Positions 14,837 to 19,561 of a DNA stretch of 64,000 nucleotides are shown piece after piece. This DNA is from Nitrospira defluvii (GTDB taxonomy: Bacteria; Nitrospirota; Nitrospiria; Nitrospirales; Nitrospiraceae), in NCBI GenBank assembly GCA_000196815.1, contig FP929003.1, positions 3,123,501-3,187,500 of the forward strand, in the 5' to 3' direction. The notes under the pieces were generated by a model that worked only from the letters and a program-made list of their open reading frames with translations, had not been told where the DNA came from and did not search any database. Every line of letters starts with the position of its first letter. Position 1 is the stretch's first letter. Both the position numbers and the translations under genes were made by a program.

Positions 14837-15697
14837 ATGCCAAACGAACGGACCACGAACTACTACGCCATCCTGGAACTCACTCCCGGCGCGTCAGACG
14901 CGGAAATCAAGCGGGCCTGGCATGAACACATGCAAGTCTGGCATCCCGATCGGTTTGTGCATTCGCCGACTCTGCACCGGAAAGCCGAGGCCCGCACGCA
15001 GCTGATCAACCAGGCCTATCAGACCCTCAGCGACCCTGCAGCCCGCGCCCGGTACGACGCCGGCAGACAACATCCCTCATCACCGACGCCACCGCCACGC
15101 CCCTCGCCGACGCCCCGTCCGCAACCAGCCCCGCGATCCCGCCAGGAACTGCGCGGGCCCCAAACGATGCTGAACGTCACCCGGTTCAGTCACCCCAAAA
15201 TCATGGTGCCGGCGATCCATATACTGGTCGATAGCCGCGAACCGCAGCCGTACGAATTCAATGGGCTCGTGCGCATCGCCGGAACGATCACACAGACACT
15301 GCCGGCCGGTGACTATGCGATTGCGGAAGCCCCGGCTATTTTTTGCGTCGAACGCCGGCGCGTCGAGGAGTTCGATACCATCTTCTCCAACCCGTCCGAC
15401 AATCGCCCGCGCTTTCTCCGTGAGCTCGAACCTCTCCGCGCTGTTCCCCATCGCTTTCTGGTGATCGAAGGGACCATCCAGTACAACCGCGGCGGAGGGC
15501 GGCTCGGCCAGTATCACCGAAACGGCATCGTGGACTTTCTGGATTCCCTGACGGCCAGATTCGGACTGCAAATCATCTATTCAGAGAGTCGCGAAGAAGC
15601 GGAAGAACGGGTTGCGAACCTGGCGGCCCTGCACTATGCCTATCACCTCGCCGAACAGCAGGGACTCGGTCGCTGTCTCACGGAGAACGACGTCTAG
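14837..15697 (+). CDS. J-domain / ERCC4-nuclease fusion protein
   Basis: The protein is 286 residues and joins two domains that I rarely see together. Residues 1-75 are a DnaJ-type J domain with an intact HPD at 36-38 and a YDAGR end. Residues 76-105 are a Pro-rich linker. Residues about 125-275 resemble the ERCC4/XPF-type nuclease: VDSRE at 131-135, LPAGDY at 155-160, and FCVERRR at 169-175, where the last recalls the catalytic ERK motif with Arg for Lys. DNA-structure-specific cleavage with recruitment of DnaK is a reasonable inference, not shown. The start is the ATG at 14837. Its stop codon is contributed by the end of a palindromic element. Confidence 0.82.
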   Translation: MPNERTTNYYAILELTPGASDAEIKRAWHEHMQVWHPDRFVHSPTLHRKAEARTQLINQAYQTLSDPAARARYDAGRQHPSSPTPPPRPSPTPRPQPAPRSRQELRGPQTMLNVTRFSHPKIMVPAIHILVDSREPQPYEFNGLVRIAGTITQTLPAGDYAIAEAPAIFCVERRRVEEFDTIFSNPSDNRPRFLRELEPLRAVPHRFLVIEGTIQYNRGGGRLGQYHRNGIVDFLDSLTARFGLQIIYSESREEAEERVANLAALHYAYHLAEQQGLGRCLTENDV

Positions 15698-15899
15698 CAG
15701 GATGCGGAAAAAGTCCGCCAGCAGCGTTCTCGCATCGCTCAGTGGCTCACCGTACCGCAAGAGTACGATTCGCCCCTGTGCTCGCTGCGGCCTTGCTGGA
15801 CGGCCTTTTTGCGCATCCTGCGAGGCTGTTCAACGTCGTCCCACACTGCGTATCTGTGGTGGCTTTGGGACTCAAAACGAGTTTTTCCGCAACCTGCTA
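15695..15899. mobile_element. MITE-like palindromic repeat element
   Basis: The ends TAGCAGGATGCGGAAAAA (15695) and the complement of TAGCAGGTTGCGGAAAAA (15882-15899) form 18-bp terminal inverted repeats with one mismatch. Inside, 15697-15821 is a large imperfect palindrome: its right arm, read in reverse, repeats the left end (GCAGGATGCGCAAAAA). The centre contains GTAC-CGCAAGA-GTAC. There is no transposase. I recall repeats of this type as abundant in Nitrospira genomes, but I cannot check that here. It fills the gap between the J/ERCC4 gene and the AAA+ gene. Confidence 0.82.
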
Positions 15900-15979
15900 G
15901 ACGGAGAAAGAGCCGATGGCTCGCCACAATCTCCCCTTTGCTTGGTAGGGTGAAACCCTCGTGCTAGCATTGCACTCCT

Positions 15980-17500
15980 ATGGCGTTATCGACAAGCGTG
16001 CATGATCTCCGCACCCTGATTCGCTCCTGCCACCCCCTGATCGTCATCGAGACGGTGGAAGAAGAGCGTGTGCTGGCGTTGCTCCAATCCGTGGCAGCAC
16101 AGGAACGCATGCCGCTGTTCGAATGGTCGATGACCAGGGGCCTCACCAGACAGGACGAAGGGCAGAGCATCAGTAAGATGACGGCCGCTCCTCTAGCGGT
16201 CCTTCAACACCTCAACGGACTGACCGTCGAGGCCCTGTTCTGGCTCAAAGATCTTGCGCCGCACCTGCAGGACGCCGCGGTGGCCCGCCAGCTGCGGGAA
16301 GTGAGTCATCACTTCGGCCGATCTCGCACAACCTGTGTGCTCACCGGCCATCCCATCGTCCTTCCGTCCGACATTGAACAGATTGCGGTCCGGCTCGACC
16401 TGCAGCTGCCGAATCGCAATGAACTGCACTCCATGCTCCAAAGTGTGCTGCAGTCACTGGGCACGAGAACGTCGCCGCGCCGCCCCGGCTCCACCCCGAC
16501 GCAGGCAAGCCCCTCGACACAAGAATCCGACGGCATTCTCCGCGCCTTGCAGGGATTGACCTTGCATCAAGCCCGGCAGGTCATCACGCAATGCATCGTC
16601 GAGGACGGCAGATTGTCCGCTGATGATGTGCAGACGATCCTGAAACGCAAGGTCCAGGCGATCAAGGACGGCGGGTTGCTGGAATATTATCCCCTTGAAG
16701 ACAACCGGTTCGAATTGGGCGGATTCGTGAATCTGAAGGCCTGGCTGGAACGAGCGAAGGTAGGATTCACAGCAGAAGCCAAGGCGCTCAACCTGACGCC
16801 GCCTCGCGGGATCATGCTGGTGGGGGTGCCGGGCTGCGGCAAGTCGCTCGCGGCAAAAGCCATTGCGCGCGAGTGGCAACTCCCGCTGCTCAAACTCGAT
16901 GCCGGGCGGCTCTTCGACAAATTCGTCGGTGAATCGGAGAAGAATTTCCGGAAGGCGATCGAGATGGCCGAATCCCTCTCACCGATCGTGCTCTGGATCG
17001 ATGAAATAGAGAAGGCCATGGTGGCCGGCGGCGGCAGCGGAGATGCCGATGCCGGATTGAGCCGCCGGCTCTTTGGTGCCTTTCTCACCTGGCTGCAGGA
17101 AAAGAAGCAGGAGGTGTTTGTCGTCGCCACGGCAAACAACCTCGCCTCCCTCCCGCCGGAACTACTGCGCAAAGGACGGTTCGACGAAATCTTCTTCGTG
17201 GACTTGCCGGACGACCACGAACGGACCGCCATCTGGAAGATCCACCTTGCGCTCCGCAAACAGGATAGCGCGGGATTCGACCTTGAGAAAATCGTCAGCG
17301 CCAGTGATGGGTTCAGCGGCTCGGAAATCGAGCAGGCGGTGGTCGCCGCACTCTACCGGGCCTTACATTACAAAACCCCGCTGACGACCGATCTCTTGAT
17401 TCAAGAATTATCCGGTACCGTGCCGCTCTCGGTCACTCGCCACGAAGACATCGATCAGCTTCGCACCATGGCTCAGGGCCGCTTCGTCAACGTGCGATAA
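15980..17500 (+). CDS. Ycf46-type AAA+ ATPase
   Basis: This 506-residue AAA+ protein resembles the Ycf46/Spastin-like branch found in cyanobacteria, plastids and other bacteria. The N-terminal 250 residues are the Ycf46-specific region (RSCHPLIVIETVEEERVL). The C-terminal ATPase has Walker A GVPGCGKS at 282-289, Walker B IVLWIDEIEK at 336-345, sensor VVATANN, and the arginine finger region LRKGRFDEIFFVDLPD. Its role is unknown in most hosts; links to CO2 uptake in cyanobacteria have been proposed. It follows the J/ERCC4 nuclease in the same orientation with only the palindromic element between them. Confidence 0.85.
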   Translation: MALSTSVHDLRTLIRSCHPLIVIETVEEERVLALLQSVAAQERMPLFEWSMTRGLTRQDEGQSISKMTAAPLAVLQHLNGLTVEALFWLKDLAPHLQDAAVARQLREVSHHFGRSRTTCVLTGHPIVLPSDIEQIAVRLDLQLPNRNELHSMLQSVLQSLGTRTSPRRPGSTPTQASPSTQESDGILRALQGLTLHQARQVITQCIVEDGRLSADDVQTILKRKVQAIKDGGLLEYYPLEDNRFELGGFVNLKAWLERAKVGFTAEAKALNLTPPRGIMLVGVPGCGKSLAAKAIAREWQLPLLKLDAGRLFDKFVGESEKNFRKAIEMAESLSPIVLWIDEIEKAMVAGGGSGDADAGLSRRLFGAFLTWLQEKKQEVFVVATANNLASLPPELLRKGRFDEIFFVDLPDDHERTAIWKIHLALRKQDSAGFDLEKIVSASDGFSGSEIEQAVVAALYRALHYKTPLTTDLLIQELSGTVPLSVTRHEDIDQLRTMAQGRFVNVR

Positions 17501-17806
17501 GCGGATTTGATTCGGCTCCATCGCGACAACGGCTTTGGGGACCACATTCACCGGCTGACCGGGACTCTCCGGACCGGATGGGCCCCGCTCTCCGCCCTCA
17601 GCCTGATCGGTCAGGGCACCTCGCAGAGCCGGACCATCGTACAGTAAGATAATTTGTGATGCCTGAAACCGCTGAGGGCGACGAATCCTTCTCCCTCAGG
17701 CTGCCTCTAATCAACTACAGCCGGTTTGCTGGGGGTGTACCCTTCTGTATCCCGTGTCGCAGCTGACCATGGAAGCGACTTGTTTACCTCAACCAGAGAC
17801 TCACTC
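17501..17806. other. Intergenic region before the TPR gene
   Basis: These 306 bases have no supported gene. The open frame of the downstream TPR protein extends back to a TTG at 17726, but no ribosome-binding site supports it. No clear hairpin or RNA gene is seen. Confidence 0.45.
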
Positions 17807-19561
17807 ATGATGATCCATATATGTTCGCCCGCTCGCGCACCGCAGCCGTTCATCCCGCTGACCTATTACCTCATTGGATTTCTTCTCCTGCTCCCGCCCG
17901 TCACGCTGACCAACGCCTCCAGGGCCATGGCGAACGACCAGGGCCCCCACTCGGAAAGCCAGGTCGCCCAACGCGCGAAGGCCGCGTGGGAGCAGGGTAC
18001 GACAGACCTGGCCCTCGGCATTCTGGACCAAGGCATTCATGAGAACCCGCAGGCCTTCGCGCTGCACCAACTCCGTGGCGACATGCTGGCCACCTCACGC
18101 CACACCGAAGCGGCCCTTGAGTCCTATGAAACCGTCCTGGCGAGGATTCCCAGGGCTCTGGACGTGCGATGGGCCAAGTGGAGCGTGCTGGTGCGGTCCG
18201 GGCAGGTGGAAGAAGCGGTCACTGAATTGCAGCGCATTGCCGCCATCGACCCTCAGAACCCGTTGATCCATTTGCGACTGGCCCGTGAGCTCCGGAAACT
18301 CGACCGGCTGGAGGAATCCCTGAAGTCGTATCAGCAGGCGGTGGAGCTGGGACCCGACATGCTCAACTGGCGGTTGGCGTTGGCGCGCGCGCGCTTCGAT
18401 ATTTTGGATTACGAAGGCGCAGACCGCGAGGTGCAGTCTGTGTTGCAACAGGTCTCACCCGGTTCCCCGCTCGAGCTGTCCGCCAAGAATCTGCTGACCG
18501 TATTTTACGGATCGACGGAGCGAGGCCGCCGCTTTGCACCTATGATGAGCCCGGACGCGAACCCGAAACAACTCAAAGACTGGTCGATGATTCGTCACGA
18601 CGCTTACGCGCTCTTCGAGGCCGGGCGCTATCAGGAAGCCGAACCCATGTATCGGCAACTCCTGCTCCTCAACCCGATGGACCCCCTCGCCAAACAGCAC
18701 CTCGGACTGATCCTCATGAATCTGGGCCGGTGCAAAGAGGCGATCGGTATCATCCCGAAAATGGAGGGCCTCGATCCCCTTGATGAAGACTATGCCGCTA
18801 CCGTCTATCGCCTGGGACAATGTCTGGTGGATTTGGGAAAATGGGAAGACGCCTACATTCAATTCAAGATCCTCTACGACACGACCGTGGCGTTTGAACA
18901 GTCGACGAGGGAGGTTGAACTTCCGATCGGAACCAGAGTGCTGGATAAGAATAAACTGCTGCGATGGTTGGACAAGATTCGTCCGCATGTCCCCGAACTG
19001 GCCAAGGAAATCGAGATGGAGGACGCCGCCCCGGGCACACCGGTGGCACCGGTCGTGCCCTCGGAAGCAGAGCTGGCCGCAAAGGCCATGGAGAACCTGA
19101 AGCCGCAGAACACTCTGGATACGGCGGCCTCCCTGGTCGGACGGGATGCCGATTTTGCCTGGTTTCGATTCGTCATCCCCGCCAAGAAAGTCATGCGGGA
19201 CGATTCGCCCACCGGCGCCCATGACTTCATTCCCCTGGACCCCGGGATCAGCTTTCCCGCTACTCAGCCGGACATTTACCTGGTGTTCGGATTGGTGACG
19301 GCGTCGTACGATGAAATTCCGCTCTCGGCGCGCTGTTTCAAAGAGCGCGCCGAACTGACCGGCGCGCAGCCGGCGGTGGCACAGGATCAGCTCATCATGT
19401 CCACCAACGACCAATCCGGCTACTTCGTCCTGTCACGTCCAGCCACCGGCTGGGCGACGGGACTCTACCGATGCGGGTTGTTCGCAGGGGAGCAAACCTC
19501 GGCCTACACTCAGGTGGATGAAGTGCGGTTCCGCATCGTTGAATCGACGAAGCCGTCGTAA
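17807..19561 (+). CDS. Exported tetratricopeptide-repeat protein
   Basis: The product is about 584 residues. After a hydrophobic export signal (about residues 16-40, LTYYLIGFLLLLPPVTLTNA) come several TPR units between about 45 and 330, such as QALHQLRGDMLATSRHTEAALESYETVLA and LIHLRLARELRKLDRLEESLKSYQQAVEL. The C-terminal 150 residues have a different, beta-rich character (DAAFAWFRF-like core, YLVFGLVTASYDEIPLSARCF). TPR stacks usually scaffold protein complexes; the partner is unknown. The start could be either of two adjacent ATGs at 17807 and 17810. Confidence 0.8.
   Translation: MMIHICSPARAPQPFIPLTYYLIGFLLLLPPVTLTNASRAMANDQGPHSESQVAQRAKAAWEQGTTDLALGILDQGIHENPQAFALHQLRGDMLATSRHTEAALESYETVLARIPRALDVRWAKWSVLVRSGQVEEAVTELQRIAAIDPQNPLIHLRLARELRKLDRLEESLKSYQQAVELGPDMLNWRLALARARFDILDYEGADREVQSVLQQVSPGSPLELSAKNLLTVFYGSTERGRRFAPMMSPDANPKQLKDWSMIRHDAYALFEAGRYQEAEPMYRQLLLLNPMDPLAKQHLGLILMNLGRCKEAIGIIPKMEGLDPLDEDYAATVYRLGQCLVDLGKWEDAYIQFKILYDTTVAFEQSTREVELPIGTRVLDKNKLLRWLDKIRPHVPELAKEIEMEDAAPGTPVAPVVPSEAELAAKAMENLKPQNTLDTAASLVGRDADFAWFRFVIPAKKVMRDDSPTGAHDFIPLDPGISFPATQPDIYLVFGLVTASYDEIPLSARCFKERAELTGAQPAVAQDQLIMSTNDQSGYFVLSRPATGWATGLYRCGLFAGEQTSAYTQVDEVRFRIVESTKPS

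Follow-up and report, generated by a model that had tools for sequence, protein, structure and literature searches.

What does a bacterial protein do when it joins a J domain to a domain of the ERCC4 nuclease fold? A gene of this kind, which we call J-ERCC4, lies within the window, that is, the whole 64,000-nucleotide stretch of Nitrospira defluvii DNA that was analyzed. The first-pass annotation had read its product as a chaperone-recruiting nuclease, and had suggested that it might form a repair, plasmid-control or defence module with the AAA+ ATPase encoded downstream. Our analysis bears out a true fusion with an ERCC4 fold, whereas it speaks against the nuclease, the module, and the plasmid or defence role. 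We propose instead that J-ERCC4 is a J-domain protein in which a decayed nuclease domain probably serves to aim DnaK.

J-ERCC4 has the makeup of a class C J-domain protein

The J-ERCC4 gene spans 14837–15697 on the + strand and encodes 286 amino acids, and the Pfam DnaJ and ERCC4 profiles both match its product above their cut-offs. The ATG at 14837 is also the start in the orthologues, which mostly have no in-frame ATG upstream. The J domain (residues 8–74; 14858–15058, + strand; PF00226, 60.6 bits, cut-off 27.8) has an intact HPD at residues 36–38 (14942–14950), as had been noted earlier, and this motif is unbroken in 89 of the 90 distinct J-ERCC4 relatives. It is followed by a basic Pro/Arg-rich linker (residues 75–124; 15059–15208, + strand; net charge of about +6), the least conserved region of the protein, inside which a conserved RGP motif is invariant in alignment A1.

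In a Pfam scan, DnaJ and ERCC4 were the sole domains found, with no G/F region, zinc finger or DnaJ/CbpA C-terminal beta-sandwich. J-ERCC4 is like the class C (type III) J-domain proteins in both defining respects: an HPD-bearing J domain is attached to an unrelated domain, and the body of class A and B proteins is missing. Class C proteins differ in whether DnaK is truly their partner, and a caution here is that helix II of the J domain, as read from the sequence, has a reduced number of basic residues. The window genome has two full-length Hsp70 genes.

The C-terminal half has the ERCC4 fold

Residues 125–286 (15209–15694, + strand) form an ERCC4-fold domain, probably a pseudo-nuclease. The Pfam ERCC4 family (PF02732) matches residues 149–261 with 43.1 bits (cut-off 24), and VDSRE, LPAGDY and VERRR occur in the order that had drawn attention to this gene. 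An AlphaFold model of the domain, for which 58 aligned sequences were used as the input (the window protein, its family, and stand-alone and viral ERCC4 proteins), had a mean pLDDT of 85.9 and a pTM of 0.80. This model supersedes an earlier full-length prediction based on close relatives only, where the start of the ERCC4 domain had a mean pLDDT of 61. Upon comparison with known structures (Foldseek, VIA-align), the model matched archaeal XPF with a Z of 14.6, Hef with 14.4 and FANCM with 13.2. As the predicted structure and the fold comparison both give an ERCC4 fold, the motif match is not a chance one.

No (HhH)2 domain was detected in J-ERCC4 by Pfam, and the protein stops at residue 286, about 25 residues past the ERCC4 match. 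The ERCC4 part retains the fold together with a conserved C-terminal helix and tail. It is acidic, with a median net charge of −6, which argues against direct DNA binding by this domain alone. A search for a second ERCC4-domain protein in the window genome found none. J-ERCC4 is therefore without a catalytic partner among the proteins found, and any dimerization through the fold would be with itself rather than as a heterodimer with another ERCC4 protein.

The catalytic site has eroded while the domain is maintained

XPF-type nucleases carry the motifs D-x-R-E, GD and ERKxxxD, with the GD Asp and the ERK Glu as the metal ligands. The window protein has the DSRE of the VDSRE site (D132, S133, R134 and E135; 15230–15241, + strand), the GD site (G158 and D159, the latter being the first metal ligand; 15308–15313, + strand) and the metal ligand E172, but it has ERR in place of ERK and Glu in place of the last Asp. 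The resulting ERRxxxE (E172, R173, R174 and E178; 15350–15370, + strand) turns the intact motif, GDXnERKX3D, into GDXnERRX3E. This pair of K-to-R and D-to-E changes is identical to that of human FANCM, whose CDXnERRX3E motif is catalytically inactive (PMC3905867). SHOC1, which has ERKX3E, shows no endonuclease activity in vitro (PMC5962103).

We observed the complete XPF-type catalytic set in 0 of the 90 distinct J-ERCC4 relatives, a set from which the row L028 had been taken out before counting. D159 is present in 60 of them, R134 in 56, E172 in 48, K174 in 22 and D178 in 9. Both metal ligands, D159 and E172, occur together in 48 relatives, and one or the other is gone in 42. Six relatives are complete except for D178, which is replaced by Glu, and inside the window genus position 134 is occupied by Arg, His, Cys or Gln.

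The history of these residues was followed on a tree made by a quick method from columns outside the motifs and rooted on stand-alone ERCC4 proteins, in which 20 of the 90 inner branches are weakly supported. On this tree D159 and E172 changed at least three times each, K174 five times and R134 at least 13 times, and HPD changed about once. The lost metal ligands are concentrated in a few clades. For the ERCC4 domain, pairwise dN/dS had a median of 0.089 in the window genus versus 0.090 in the clade that has lost both metal ligands, these being simple pairwise counts with dS near 1 in the two larger clades. Purifying selection is thus equal with or without the ligands, which indicates that, in at least those lineages, the domain is kept for a role other than cutting. 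An ERCC4 fold with a degenerate motif under selection is what marks a non-catalytic ERCC4 domain, and J-ERCC4 has all of these.

These results weigh against the proposed chaperone-recruiting nuclease. Of the two structural observations that had been named as decisive for that proposal, a missing ERCC4 fold was not found, while a dismantled active site is largely what the family displays. The repeated erosion of the cutting site with the remaining fold kept suggests that J-ERCC4 probably works as an adaptor for a chaperone and does not cut DNA. However, since the window protein keeps D159, E172 and DxRE, and the six relatives above keep everything apart from D178, some members could still cut.

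The AAA+ gene is a neighbour in one genus only

The AAA+ ATPase gene (15980–17500, + strand; 506 amino acids; PF00004, 109 bits) lies downstream of J-ERCC4 on the same strand, as first described. Its product has a full-length match to phrog_8638 and is 36–38% identical, along its full length, to AAA+ ATPases encoded by two cyanobacterial plasmids, and the label "Ycf46-type" given to it is plausible from its sequence.

In an order-wide set of 235 genomes, J-ERCC4 is present in 87, the AAA+ gene in 107 and both in 54. Within the window genus, the two genes lie on the same strand within 3 kb of each other in 20 of the 22 genomes having both, and in the other two they are split across contigs. Outside the genus, the AAA+ gene is within 3 kb of J-ERCC4 in 0 of the 32 genomes having both: three of these carry the genes on a single contig at a distance of over 1.3 Mb, and the rest have them on different contigs, which is the weaker evidence because some genomes are fragmented. 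A further 31 genomes outside the genus have only J-ERCC4 and 52 only the AAA+ gene. Inside the genus, two genomes (G012 and G017) have J-ERCC4 without the AAA+ gene, and three complete genomes are without both. Beyond the genus the AAA+ gene recurs in a separate neighbourhood, and the TPR-repeat gene located at 17726–19561 (+ strand) of the window is the more deeply conserved neighbour of J-ERCC4. Outside the genus, this gene occurs within four genes of J-ERCC4 at 9 of 26 loci, in several genera, and the AAA+ gene at 0 of 26.

The lack of such a pairing within 3 kb outside the genus, an outcome that the first-pass annotation had itself named as contrary to its module, led us to reject the AAA+ ATPase as the functional partner of J-ERCC4 on grounds of synteny. 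The AAA+ gene is a local coincidence, not a required partner. A defence system was likewise rejected, as the J-ERCC4 protein has no PADLOC match. The AAA+ protein does not make up an IetAS system either: the PADLOC IetA matches to it begin at residue 268 and are below the NCBIfam cut-off, and no protease, IetS or other, was found among the scanned neighbours.

Some other features of the interval were recorded. A copy of a dispersed repeat of about 205 bp (15696–15900), not part of the system, lies between the two genes; some 40 other sites in the genome match it, and at 10 of these the match is almost full length, with 96–98% identity. Four of the genus's genomes have a block of about 2 kb between J-ERCC4 and the AAA+ gene, and at the two loci that were read (L080, 4164–5683; L096, 6952–8490) it encodes one PIN-domain (PF13470) protein and one of the RDD family. 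Outside the genus, a gene of the FGE-sulfatase type (PF03781) is a recurrent neighbour of the AAA+ gene, as seen in L094 (5348–8460), with the same cluster in L086 and L088.

Proposed function and the alternatives to it

The explanation that we favour, and hold to be somewhat probable, is that J-ERCC4 belongs to the class C J-domain proteins and that its ERCC4 domain has turned into a non-catalytic targeting or dimerization module for DnaK. The sequences themselves show the fusion, the conserved HPD, the fold, its decayed site and the lasting constraint, whereas recruitment of DnaK, dimerization, the loss of cutting and the kind of client are inferred from them. The ERCC4 module would most likely homodimerize and place the J domain, and hence DnaK, at a particular client. 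This client may be DNA-bound, and the basic linker could provide the DNA contact. The J domain would then call one of the two full-length Hsp70s and trigger ATP hydrolysis by DnaK and capture of the client.

A different view is that J-ERCC4 has remained an active structure-specific nuclease wherever D159 and E172 are kept, the window species included, with DnaK loading or recycling it and with other lineages being inactive. The 48 relatives with both ligands, the six that differ from the full set at D178 alone and the clustering of ligand losses in a few clades would all agree with this. Nevertheless, we consider it unlikely, given that the Lys and the last Asp of the window protein are both replaced as in inactive FANCM, that position 134 is variable inside the window genus itself, and that the domain is equally constrained whether the ligands are there or not. 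It is still harder to maintain that J-ERCC4 and the AAA+ ATPase constitute one repair, plasmid-control or defence module. Their same-strand proximity in 20 of the 22 in-genus genomes that have both and their joint loss from three complete genomes are what such a module would predict; the 0 of 32 outside the genus, the many genomes with one gene only (G012 and G017 among them), the repeat copy or the PIN/RDD block that can stand between the genes, and the lack of a PADLOC match to J-ERCC4 make it highly improbable.

Another reading is a bacterial counterpart of FANCM–FAAP24, in which the ERCC4 domain, no longer cutting, would still recognize branched or damaged DNA and recruit DnaK to repair complexes or stalled forks. 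The FANCM fold match (Z of 13.2), the same motif substitutions and the basic linker are in its favour. However, (HhH)2 is the chief DNA-binding part in the FANCM–FAAP24 family and was not detected in J-ERCC4, the ERCC4 domain is acidic, and the FANCM–FAAP24 nuclease domains alone did not bind DNA (PMC3905867), and so this counterpart appears quite unlikely. In its most far-reaching form, with the same slim chance, this reading makes J-ERCC4 a pseudo-nuclease adaptor that delivers DnaK to branched DNA or a repair complex, a chaperone-linked analogue of FANCM–FAAP24 with an independent origin in nitrite-oxidizing bacteria.

The non-catalytic adaptor that we favour can be set against known ERCC4 proteins. 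J-ERCC4 shares with the XPF/MUS81/Hef nucleases the ERCC4 fold and the motif order, with Z of about 14 to XPF and Hef, and differs from them in its broken GDXnERKX3D, in the (HhH)2 that was not detected, and in its extra J domain. Eukaryotes have several well-known ERCC4 domains that are non-catalytic (ERCC1, EME1, FANCM, FAAP24). These proteins and SHOC1 have a degenerate ERCC4 motif like J-ERCC4, the ERRX3E being identical in FANCM; in contrast to it they come from eukaryotes, possess (HhH)2 and in most cases form a pair with a second ERCC4 protein, whereas J-ERCC4 has a J domain and is the single ERCC4 protein found in its genome. In the literature searched, we found no report of a bacterial non-catalytic ERCC4 domain, or of one joined to a J domain. 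The J-ERCC4 fusion too was absent from this literature, which did not cover the main survey of bacterial J-domain proteins (Barriot et al. 2020, cited in PMC8215388).

The J-ERCC4 family offers a staged decay of the ERCC4 active site within one bacterial order, under continued constraint on both the fold and the J domain. This staging opens the non-catalytic job of the pseudo-nuclease to testing and hints at a new means by which DnaK is aimed.

Distribution and origin of the fusion

In a single scan of a genome collection with peptides of close relatives, the full J-ERCC4 fusion turned up in no order but Nitrospirales, where it occurs in the family of the window species and in a single sister family. 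The gene lies on the chromosome, mostly as one copy per genome. A plasmid search with the ERCC4 part of J-ERCC4 gave no match, and the phages and viral contigs searched for the fusion gave J-domain matches only, so that the suggested role in plasmid control or defence gained no backing from mobile relatives of the fusion.

Elsewhere in the phylum, the ERCC4 proteins that were read are either stand-alone proteins of about 200 amino acids (L130–L132) or have another J-less architecture. L130–L132 are the closest stand-alone relatives found. They and a protein on a Rhodoferax ferrireducens plasmid (NC_007901) align with J-ERCC4 along the entire domain and into the C-terminal GR.L tail; unlike it, they are about 200 amino acids long and have no J domain, and the DxRE, GD and ERKxxxD motifs are all intact in L130–L132. 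The fusion probably arose through the attachment of a J domain to a relative of such stand-alone bacterial ERCC4 nucleases. The ERCC4 part then probably turned into a pseudo-nuclease, its catalytic residues decaying separately from one lineage to another.

The R. ferrireducens plasmid protein (H21, NC_007901.1, 143563–144117) has 63% identity to the stand-alone Nitrospirota ERCC4, which suggests that the stand-alone form has spread horizontally. A separate bacterial ERCC4 family (L128, L129, L133, L134 and L135) consists of proteins of about 350–370 amino acids having a conserved N-terminal region and no J domain. Two irregular copies of J-ERCC4 itself were also seen. In one genome (G055), a C-terminal fragment (L142) lies about 5 kb from the intact copy, and in another (G215:C11:8895-9918) the gene is in two overlapping pieces, probably due to a frameshift.
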